Origin: Propylenella binzhouense | GTDB lineage: Bacteria > Pseudomonadota > Alphaproteobacteria > Rhizobiales > Afifellaceae | Assembly: GCF_009866965.1 (NCBI RefSeq) | Contig: NZ_SPKJ01000009.1 | Span: 1 to 64,000, forward strand | Direction of reading: 5' to 3' | DNA: 64,000 nt | Shown here: positions 57,211 through 60,522 of the stretch, one piece after another | Layout: each line of letters starts with the position of its first letter | Position numbering within the stretch: the first letter of the stretch is position 1 | The notes under the pieces: model-generated | Database searches by the model: none | The model's input: only the letters and a program-made list of their open reading frames with translations | Told to the model about the DNA's origin: nothing | Made by a program: the position numbers and the translations under genes

Positions 57211-57648
57211 ATGACAGGGACTTTCGCGGTGCATGCTCGTGTTCCGCGCATCCGGTTCGCGGCACGCGCGAAGCTTCGGCCTCCCGACCCGGGCCCATGC
57301 GGAAGAGGCAATTGCCGGCCGGCGACGGCACCGCTCGCCGTCCTCGCCCTCGCCGGCTGCAGCGGACCGCAATCCGCCCTCGATCCGCAAGGCCCGGCGG
57401 CGGAGCGGATCGCCGATCTCTTCTGGCTCTTCACGGCGACCCTGACGACGATCTGGCTCCTCGTCCTGCTCGGCCTTGCCGTGGCGATCATGCGTGCGCG
57501 GCGCGCTCCCCTCGCCGATCCGCTCGCGCTCGACCCGGCCTTCGAGGCCCGCGCCCGCCGCGTGGTCGGGATCCTGGTCGTCCTGACGGCCGCGATCGTC
57601 GCCGCATTCACCATCCTCAGCTACGGCGCCAGCAGGCCCCTCGCATGA
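57211..57648 (+). CDS. Truncated cytochrome oxidase subunit II-like protein (no CuA domain)
   Basis: A 145-residue protein. A lipobox-like LALAGCSG is followed by two membrane helices (LFWLFTATLTTIWLLVLLG and RVVGILVVLTAAIVAAFTIL), as in the N-terminal hairpin of oxidase subunit II. The protein then stops at SYGASRPLA, just where the periplasmic CuA cupredoxin domain should begin. No cupredoxin or cytochrome c domain is encoded nearby. Its stop overlaps the subunit I start (ATGA), so it belongs to that operon. The N-terminal ~45 residues do not look like a normal signal, so the start is uncertain. Confidence 0.65.
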   Translation: MTGTFAVHARVPRIRFAARAKLRPPDPGPCGRGNCRPATAPLAVLALAGCSGPQSALDPQGPAAERIADLFWLFTATLTTIWLLVLLGLAVAIMRARRAPLADPLALDPAFEARARRVVGILVVLTAAIVAAFTILSYGASRPLA

Positions 57649-59558
57649 CCGCCGAGGCGCCGCCGCTCGACCGCGAGATCCGGGATCGCGACCTCGACGA
57701 CGCGGCGCTGCGGGCGGCGCTCGCCAGGACATGGGCGACGCGGTCCAGCCTGTCCGGCTGGATCGGCGAGGTCGACCACAAGCGGATCGCGCTCCGCTTC
57801 GTCCTGACCGCGCTCTTCTTCCTGCTGCTCGGCGGCAGCGCGGCCCTCGTGATGCGCCTGCAGCTCGCCCGCCCGGAAAGCGGTCTGATCGGTCCCGACC
57901 TCTACAACCAGCTCTTCAGCATGCACGGCACGACGATGATGTTCCTCTTCGCCGTGCCGGTGATGGAGACGATCGGCCTCTATTTCGTGCCGCTGATGGT
58001 CGGCGCGCGGCAGGTGGCGTTCCCCCGCCTCGTCAACTTCGCCTACTGGATGTTCCTGTTCGGCGGGCTGATGCTCTGGATCGCCTTCCTGCTGAACACC
58101 GGCGCCGATACCGGCTGGTTCAGCTACGTGCCGCTCTCCTCGCTGCAATATTCGCCGACGAAGCGCGTCGACTTCTGGGCGCAGATGGTCACCTTCACGG
58201 AGGTGTCCTCGCTCGCGGTCGCGGTGTCGCTGATCGTGACCGTCCTCAAGCACCGCGCCCCCGGCATGACGCTCGACCGCATCCCGCTCTTCGTCTGGGC
58301 CGAGTTCGTCAACGCCTTCGTGATCATGTTCGCCATGCCCTCCGTCATGATCGCCAGCACGCTGCTGATCCTCGACCGCCTCGTCGAGACCAGGTTCTTC
58401 GAGACCAGCGCCGGCGGCGACGCTTTGCTCTGGCAGCACCTCTTCTGGTTCTTCGGGCATCCGGAGGTCTACATCATCTTCATCCCGGGCACCGGCATGG
58501 TCTCGGCCATCATCGCGACGTTCGCGACCCGGCCCGTCTTCGGCTACGTGCCGCTCGTCCTGGCGCTGATCGCGACCGGCTTCCTGTCCTTCGGGCTTTG
58601 GGTCCACCACATGTTCGCGACCGGGCTGCCGAAGCTCGGCGAGAGCTTCTTCACCGCCTCCTCCATGCTGATCGCGGTGCCGAGCGGAATCCAGATCTTC
58701 TGCTGGATCGCGACCTTGTGGGGCGGGCGGCCGCGCTTCCACACGCCGCTTCTGTTCGTGCTCGGATTCGTCTTCATCTTCGTCGCGGGCGGGATGACCG
58801 GCGTCATGGTCGCCTCGGTGCCGATCGACCTGCAGGTCCACGACACCTTCTTCGTCGTCGCCCATTTCCACTACGTGCTGATAGGCGGCGCCGTGTTCCC
58901 GCTCCTCGGCGCGATCTACTACTGGTTCCCGAAGGTCACCGGCAGGCTCATGAGCGAGCGGCTCGGGGCGTGGAACTTCGGCCTCGCCTTCGCCGGCTTC
59001 AACCTCGCCTTCTTCCCGATGCACATTCTCGGCCTTCAGGGCATGCCCCGGCGCGTCTACACCTATCCGGCGGAGCTCGGCTGGGGCGGGCTCAACCTCC
59101 TTGCGACGACCGGCGCCTTGATGTTCGCCGCAAGCTTCGCGCTCCTCGTCGTCAACGCGGTGACGAGCTACCGCTCGGGCCGGGCGGCGGGTTCCAATCC
59201 CTGGGGCGCCGGCACGCTCGAATGGGCGACCGCCTCGCCGCCGCCGCCCTACAATTTCGCGCTGACGCCCCTCGTCACGAGCCGCGAGCCGCTCTGGAGC
59301 GAGCGCACGGCGCTTCCGGTCGTCACCGGCCTGCGGGTGGACCGCCGCGAGACCTTCGTGACCTCGCCCGCGGAAGCGCGGCCGGAGCTCCGGGACATGG
59401 CGGTCGAGCCCTCCATCTGGCCGTTCGTCGCCGCGCTCTTCTCGGGCCTCACCCTGTTCGGCTCGATCTACACGCCCTGGGCGGTGGTCGCCGGATCCCC
59501 CTTCATCGCGGCCGCTCTCGTCGGCTGGTTCTGGCCGAAGAGCGCGAAGGAGGAATGA
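57645..59558 (+). CDS. Haem-copper oxidase subunit I (accessory aa3-like)
   Basis: A 637-residue subunit I with 12 or more membrane segments. Haem and CuB ligands are present: SMHGTTMMF, FWFFGHPEVYIIF with the His-Tyr pair and Glu, LWVHHMFATG, and VHDTFFVVAHFHYVL. By comparison with remembered type A sequences, the D-channel Asp in GAPDMAFPR is replaced (GARQVAFPR) and the K-channel Lys in PTGIKIF is replaced (PSGIQIF). The ATG overlaps the truncated subunit II stop. It is probably an accessory terminal oxidase with altered proton handling (inference). Confidence 0.88.
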   Translation: MTAEAPPLDREIRDRDLDDAALRAALARTWATRSSLSGWIGEVDHKRIALRFVLTALFFLLLGGSAALVMRLQLARPESGLIGPDLYNQLFSMHGTTMMFLFAVPVMETIGLYFVPLMVGARQVAFPRLVNFAYWMFLFGGLMLWIAFLLNTGADTGWFSYVPLSSLQYSPTKRVDFWAQMVTFTEVSSLAVAVSLIVTVLKHRAPGMTLDRIPLFVWAEFVNAFVIMFAMPSVMIASTLLILDRLVETRFFETSAGGDALLWQHLFWFFGHPEVYIIFIPGTGMVSAIIATFATRPVFGYVPLVLALIATGFLSFGLWVHHMFATGLPKLGESFFTASSMLIAVPSGIQIFCWIATLWGGRPRFHTPLLFVLGFVFIFVAGGMTGVMVASVPIDLQVHDTFFVVAHFHYVLIGGAVFPLLGAIYYWFPKVTGRLMSERLGAWNFGLAFAGFNLAFFPMHILGLQGMPRRVYTYPAELGWGGLNLLATTGALMFAASFALLVVNAVTSYRSGRAAGSNPWGAGTLEWATASPPPPYNFALTPLVTSREPLWSERTALPVVTGLRVDRRETFVTSPAEARPELRDMAVEPSIWPFVAALFSGLTLFGSIYTPWAVVAGSPFIAAALVGWFWPKSAKEE

Positions 59559-59560
59559 GG

Positions 59561-60163
59561 ATGCGGGAGCGGCGCGTCGCGGACTATTCCGCGCTCCCGG
59601 ACTACGGCTTCGGGCCGAAGAGCCCGATGTGGTGGGGAACGCTCGGCTTCTGCGCGCTCGAGGGCATGGGCTTCGCGATCGCCTGCGCGACCTACCTCTA
59701 TCTCGCCTTCGTGAACCCGGAATGGCCGATCAATGCGCGGCCGCCGGACCTCCTGGCGGGAACGCTCGTGACGATCCTGCTCCTCGCCAGCGTGGTGCCG
59801 AACCACATCCTGAAGGCGGCGGCGGAGCGGGAGAGCATCCGCGCGGTGCGGATCTGGATGCCCGTCATGTCGGCATTCGGGGCGGCTCCGCTCGTCCTGC
59901 GCTGGTTCGAGTTCGGCATGCTGAACATAAGATGGGACAGCAACGCCTACGGCTCGGCCGTGTGGGTGCTGCTCGGCCTGCATACGACGCACCTCATCAC
60001 CGATGTCGGCGACACGCTCGTCCTCGCGGCGCTGATGTGGACCCGGTTCGGCCGATCGGGGAAGCGCTTCAGCGACGTGTCGGACAACGCCTTCTACTGG
60101 GACTTCGTGGTGCTCACCTGGCTGCCGCTCTACGTGCTCATCTACTGGGTGCCGCGGCTGTGA
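59561..60163 (+). CDS. Cytochrome oxidase subunit III-like protein
   Basis: A 200-residue protein with about five membrane segments (WWGTLGFCALEGMGFAIACA, LLAGTLVTILLLASVVPNH, AVWVLLGLHTTHLITDVGDT). The GLHTTHLITDVGD and FYWDFVVLTWLPLYVLIYW patterns are subunit III hallmarks. ATG 59561 has GGAGG seven bases upstream; ATG 59555 overlapping the previous stop is too close to that site. It sits directly after subunit I and overlaps the next gene by GTGA. Confidence 0.82.
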   Translation: MRERRVADYSALPDYGFGPKSPMWWGTLGFCALEGMGFAIACATYLYLAFVNPEWPINARPPDLLAGTLVTILLLASVVPNHILKAAAERESIRAVRIWMPVMSAFGAAPLVLRWFEFGMLNIRWDSNAYGSAVWVLLGLHTTHLITDVGDTLVLAALMWTRFGRSGKRFSDVSDNAFYWDFVVLTWLPLYVLIYWVPRL

Positions 60164-60522
60164 GGCCGCGCCCCGACCGCCGGCAAGGACGCTGGCTGCC
60201 CTGGTCCGGGCTCGCCTTAGGCGCGGCCGCATGGGCGGTCTCGACCCAGCTCAACTACGCGCTCGTGCCCTGGGTCTGCGCGACGGGCATCAACGTCGTC
60301 CCGGCCGTCGCGCTGGCGCTCGCGCTGCTTGCGGCGGCGGGCGGCGCGCTGTCCTGGCATTCCTGGCGGAAGCTCGCGAAGTCCGGCTCGCTCGAGCGGC
60401 CGGAGGCGGGGTTCCCGCACCGGCTCGGCGCGGCAGTCGGGATGTCCGCGGCGGCCCTCTTCACGCTCGTCATCCTGCTCCATGCGAGCGCCGGCCTCTT
60501 CTTCTCGGGCTGCGAGCGCTGA
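60160..60522 (+). CDS. Small membrane protein of the oxidase operon
   Basis: A 120-residue protein with three hydrophobic segments (WSGLALGAAAWAVSTQLNYA, VPAVALALALLAAAGGALSW, AVGMSAAALFTLVILLHASA). The start is GTG overlapping the subunit III stop. Its final position in the operon resembles the CoxP-type last gene of alternative alphaproteobacterial oxidases, but I cannot assign it by motif. It probably assembles with or stabilises the complex. Confidence 0.65.
   Translation: MRPRPDRRQGRWLPWSGLALGAAAWAVSTQLNYALVPWVCATGINVVPAVALALALLAAAGGALSWHSWRKLAKSGSLERPEAGFPHRLGAAVGMSAAALFTLVILLHASAGLFFSGCER

Follow-up and report, generated by a model that had tools for sequence, protein, structure and literature searches.

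What kind of enzyme is encoded by an operon in which subunit II (SII) of a haem-copper oxidase ends right after its membrane hairpin and subunit I (SI) lacks the customary residues of both proton channels? The operon lies at 57211–60522 of the window, by which we mean the whole stretch of 64,000 nucleotides that was analysed (Propylenella binzhouense, NZ_SPKJ01000009.1, positions 1–64,000, forward strand). Its four overlapping genes, in the order truncated SII (SII′), SI, SIII, SIV (Table 1), make up a reduced cytochrome oxidase operon of the caa3 type (COX operon type a-II/CoxMNOP-like). A first-pass annotation, made from the sequence alone, had treated the CuA loss and the channel loss as the peculiarity of one type of enzyme. 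The two differ in origin: the loss of CuA is private to the window genome, whereas the channel changes are shared by a whole clade. On balance, the operon most likely encodes a cytochrome c oxidase that is crippled or in decay, in which a probably recent deletion has struck a member of a clade with rewired channels.

Table 1. Genes and channel residues of the oxidase operon (positions in the window; residue equivalents in Paracoccus numbering)
Feature	Position	Strand	Remarks
Truncated SII (CoxB/CoxM type)	57211..57648	+	145 aa; lipobox LAGC, QSALDPQG motif, two-helix hairpin
ATGA overlap of SII stop (TGA) and SI start (ATG)	57645..57648	+	
SI, A-family haem-copper oxidase	57645..59558	+	637 aa; C-terminal two-helix extension, COX4-like
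E108 = position 109	57966..57968	+	carboxylate, four residues ahead of the lost N113; canonical enzymes have A/G/L/V here, the D124-less clade E/Q/H
Q123 = D124 (D-channel)	58011..58013	+	N (33/39), S or E in other clade members
V130 = N131 (D-channel)	58032..58034	+	N in 39/39 other clade members; private to the window
E186 = G190 (helix IV SGASS motif)	58200..58202	+	E in 68/68 of the branch; all sampled enzymes with K354 have G
E274 = E278 (D-channel end glutamate)	58464..58466	+	kept
Q350 = K354 (K-channel)	58692..58694	+	Q throughout the clade
SIII, short form	59561..60163	+	200 aa; 56% identity to S. medicae pSMED03 SIII, full length
Small membrane protein, SIV-like	60160..60522	+	53% identity to the "hypothetical protein" after SIII in S. 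medicae

Judged from its sequence, the homology of SI is unambiguous and chance is not an issue. SI scores 498 bits against Pfam PF00115 and 694 bits against NCBIfam TIGR02891 (CtaD/CoxA), above the model cut-off of 670.75, and its reading frame is free of stops and frameshifts. In Paracoccus numbering, which was anchored through the aa3 SI of the same genome to PDB 1ar1, the equivalents of H94, H276, Y280, H325/H326, H411, H413, E278, R473/R474 and the Mg-site HD are retained. All haem and CuB ligands are present, as had been noted at first pass, and the haem a, haem a3 and CuB histidines and the HPEVY tyrosine place SI in the A family, as do its position in the tree and its TIGR02891 score. 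SI departs from near-invariant columns at only 3 of 148 positions and shows little sign of decay.

For A-type enzymes, the D-channel is described by D124, N199, N113, N131, Y35, S134, S193 and E278 and the K-channel by K354, T351, S291 and Y280 (PMC3084760). The window SI keeps S193 and E278 of the A1 D-channel set, with Q, S, L, V, F and A at the other six positions; in the K-channel, S291 and Y280 are kept and K354 and T351 are replaced by Q and S. The motifs GARQVAFPR and PSGIQIF, which the first-pass annotation had picked out as replacing the usual ones, are both there, and they put Q at D124 and at K354. E109 and E190 are present in the window enzyme, position 199 is S, and the residue that follows N131 is, like N131 itself, privately changed.

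Are these changes peculiar to the window? A scan of bacterial genomes and order-, class- and phylum-wide searches found many SI relatives at 54–69% identity, and 100 A-family SI sequences were placed in a tree by a quick method with SH-aLRT support; the sequences were picked for their resemblance to the window, and the counts of losses given here hold for that sample. One branch (100% SH-aLRT) separates 15 sequences with K354 from the other 85, at the base of which K354 was lost. Nested within these is a branch of 68 (98%) in which N113 gave way to V/I/L or similar residues, with E at 190 in 68/68, E/Q/H at 109 and, in most members, E at 199. A branch of 40 inside the 68 (99%), to which the window belongs, has N, S, E or Q for D124. 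Support for the nesting overall is 97–99% SH-aLRT, and Q354, N131, E190 and E278 occur in all 39 members of the 40-row branch other than the window. The relatives come from Rhizobium, Sinorhizobium, Mesorhizobium, Bradyrhizobium, Acetobacteraceae, Burkholderiales and Acidobacteria, and are of caa3 type, resembling COX operon type a-II. The first-pass annotation was right that the usual channel residues are missing, and had named alternative conserved channel residues as what would speak against its reading; at the level of sequence these exist, namely E109 (E/Q/H), E190 (68/68) and, in most members, E199.

Other combinations occur in the A family. Two I+III fusions outside the 40-row branch (L075 and L085) have E for D124 and Q for K354. 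Another A-family variant, with HPWVY for HPEVY (W278), is without the D-channel glutamate; it has A or S at K354 and keeps D124 and N113 (G000 contig C210 [L003], L049, L053–L055, L058 and L065). In L057, W278 occurs together with Q354.

The history of SII is a different one. The window SII matches residues 4–108 of the 334-amino-acid Sinorhizobium medicae SII at 57313–57633 and then ends, so that, as the first-pass annotation had it, the 145-residue protein stops after its membrane hairpin and contains no CuA. It aligns to its relatives through both helices and up to its last residue, which lies at the expected start of the cupredoxin; neither this CuA-bearing domain nor the fused cytochrome c of all close relatives is present. 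The protein has zero Pfam matches and, in NCBIfam, only weak N-terminal matches to CoxB/QoxA. A stop or frameshift hiding the CuA domain was ruled out, as tblastn with the S. medicae SII finds CuA in no frame of the window.

Among the relatives, the SII directly upstream of SI contains a CuA motif (for example CAEFCGLQHAHM) at 47 of the 47 clade and near-clade loci checked, which rules out a family-wide CuA-less enzyme and makes the CuA loss a private deletion. The fused haem c motif is found in 45 of these 47, being missing in L025 and L122, and the window alone lacks both CuA and haem c. The SII hairpin as a query in 61 genomes gave weak matches only and no clear counterpart, and none of the close-SI relatives of the same order, class or phylum has another hairpin-only SII. 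The simplest history would be a lineage-specific deletion of the stretch between the hairpin and the start of SI. In L027 and L030 a complete SII closes with an identical ATGA overlap, so the stop in the window could be the ancestral one. In L025 (Mesorhizobium sp. B2-7-2), the SII upstream of 6001 keeps CuA, and the alignment shows its fused cytochrome c domain to be gone; this is an independent reduction of the donor side within the same clade.

The 5′ end of the SII gene is also unusual. An ATG at 57297 (MRKRQL...) has the usual spacing to the lipobox but reads in a different frame from the hairpin (region 57297–57358). The one ATG that is in frame precedes the lipobox Cys by 49 codons, a distance that is mostly 11–27 in relatives. 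A frameshift or a sequencing error at 57297–57358 is possible. L026 and L114 likewise have no in-frame ATG at a typical signal-peptide distance. Third-position GC tracks each frame of the operon from about 57330 onward and is strong in SI, SIII and SIV.

The rest of the operon is complete. A GTGA overlap joins SIII and SIV, both full length by tblastn with the S. medicae relative, and an ATGA overlap is given for the end of SI at 59558. On S. medicae pSMED03 the order is PQQ-alcohol dehydrogenase, substrate-binding protein, c-type cytochrome, SII, SI, SIII, SIV and CtaG, and tblastn of this module against the window matched the SII hairpin, SI, SIII and SIV only; the PQQ dehydrogenase, substrate-binding protein, cytochrome c and CtaG were not found in the window. 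Two CtaG genes are present elsewhere in the genome. Full-length relatives are common on rhizobial plasmids, for example L146 (S. medicae pSMED03) and L147 (R. etli CIAT 652 pC), and on pSMED03 the PQQ alcohol dehydrogenase, c-type cytochrome and oxidase form one apparent respiratory module.

Could another protein supply the missing CuA? The genome has five COX1 and three COX2 CuA domains, and each CuA adjoins its own COX1; the fifth COX1 (C172), which stands far from the rest, is probably cbb3-like. A query with the clade CuA and cytochrome c domain matched the paired SII genes and a cytochrome-like sequence on C210. The genome search for a separate CuA protein that had been suggested at first pass thus turned up none that is unpaired in the assembly.

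We favor decay because of the out-of-frame ATG at 57297, the missing neighbors and the N131V change, and we infer that the deletion was recent and disabling. The genome has four other haem-copper oxidases. Against decay, SI, SIII and SIV are intact and there is no general decay yet; these intact genes fit a recent deletion and retained use alike. The preserved SII stop and ATGA overlap would also be produced by selection for the hairpin.

It is also possible, if doubtful, that the operon encodes a working oxidase without CuA, in which the hairpin-only SII would scaffold assembly and haem a would be reduced directly by a c-type cytochrome or other periplasmic donor. This would fit the four genes still overlapping in order, the hairpin that is still coding-like, the clean deletion with its translational coupling preserved, the retention of all redox ligands, Y280 and R473/R474, and an SI nearly free of deviations beyond the D-channel region. 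However, no other clade member works in this way, the cytochrome c gene of the relatives is missing here, and no coding-like ORF of the window has a cytochrome c (CXXCH) motif. Moreover, cytochrome c oxidase activity is known to be very low in oxidases with a defective CuA. A private deletion, with CuA in 47/47 relatives, does not establish an alternative route of electron entry for the family; the first-pass annotation had held that the enzyme would need one. That this is a natural A-family oxidase working without CuA, with haem a reduced directly by way of the hairpin-only SII and an E109/E190-to-E278 path replacing D124/K354, seems unlikely.

Has the missing part of SII simply been lost in assembly? 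The sequence is GC-rich, the draft is fragmented into 229 contigs and the genus is represented by one genome only, all of which would favor an artefact in which ~650 bases were dropped from a full-length SII. We think this quite unlikely, given that the junction is clean, with the hairpin frame closing on the ATGA overlap and not on a random frameshift, that completeness of the genome is given as 100% and that no CuA fragment of the operon lies elsewhere in the assembly.

Conversion to a quinol oxidase, as in cytochrome bo3 after CuA loss, is very improbable. Such enzymes are also A-family oxidases without CuA, and the best PDB match by phmmer is the SI of the aa3-600 menaquinol oxidase. However, an Arg and an Asp line the quinol site in bo3 and aa3-600, and the window has L and A in their place (LLGGSAALVMR vs FRGGVDGLMMR in aa3-600), on which grounds the reading was rejected; in addition, quinol oxidases keep the SII cupredoxin fold that is absent here, and the NCBIfam CyoB/QoxB scores are far under cut-off. 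A nitric oxide reductase-like enzyme or other superfamily member that does not reduce oxygen, suggested by the unusual channels and donor side, is the least credible and was rejected, since the window and all clade members retain the cross-link tyrosine Y280, E278 and the three CuB histidines, and the tree places SI inside the A-family oxygen reductases.

How would protons and electrons move through such enzymes? K354 and D124 were lost long ago in the SI clade, with new carboxylates arising along helices II and IV. From the alignment, D-side uptake probably runs through E109 and E190, and E199 where present, to E278, so that both active-site protons and any that are pumped would enter by the helix II/IV carboxylates. 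Without K354, conduction on the Y280/S291 side might rely on water and Q354, or the helix II/IV path might carry all of the protons. A later clean deletion in the window lineage would then have taken the CuA and haem c domains of SII and left the hairpin and its translational coupling to SI. With CuA gone, the normal path of electrons from cytochrome c to haem a would be cut; the complex may still assemble, most likely with little or no cytochrome c oxidase activity, and very low turnover of cytochrome c would be expected unless haem a is reduced directly.

In COX operon type a-II, a COX1 of 630–670 amino acids is fused with COX4, COX2 usually carries a cytochrome c and a PQQ dehydrogenase is often encoded (PMC4013037). 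The window operon resembles this type in its 637-residue SI, which aligns over its full length with its relatives and has a C-terminal extension whose likeness to COX4 is taken from PMC4013037, in its short SIII and small SIV and in its order II-I-III-IV; in its closest plasmid relative, moreover, the oxidase genes are preceded by those for a PQQ alcohol dehydrogenase and cytochrome c. Unlike that type, its SII has neither CuA nor cytochrome c, and PQQ dehydrogenase, cytochrome c and CtaG are absent beside it. The likeness to alternative alphaproteobacterial oxidases in gene order that was pointed out at first pass holds for both CoxMNOP and COX operon type a-II. The window operon resembles the rhizobial CoxMNOP alternative oxidase in gene order and taxonomic setting and differs from it in the truncated SII; in R. 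etli, a coxN mutant has no growth defect (PMC4274787). A1-type aa3 enzymes (Paracoccus 1ar1, Rhodobacter 1m56) have the same haem a, haem a3 and CuB ligands, Y280, E278 and R473/R474, but in the window D124, N113, N131, N199, Y35, S134 and K354 are replaced and CuA is absent.

Channel loss in the A family is of a kind not unknown: K-channel variants and losses have been reported, chiefly in an archaeal tree (PMC8239418). In a 2011 survey of 1216 sequences, only four lacked the channel residues of their own family and were assigned to type B (PMC3084760). We found no description of a branch without D124 and K354 and with new carboxylates in the literature searched.

The window copy is a natural experiment in CuA loss. 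The rewiring of proton uptake in the clade is the more interesting and testable result. The A family is classed by its D- and K-channel residues, and a well-supported branch of 40 sequences without D124, K354 and N113 departs from this. In its members, nature offers counterparts of the classical D132N, N121 and K362 mutants together with candidate compensations, and the minimal needs of a pumping A-family enzyme thereby become testable.
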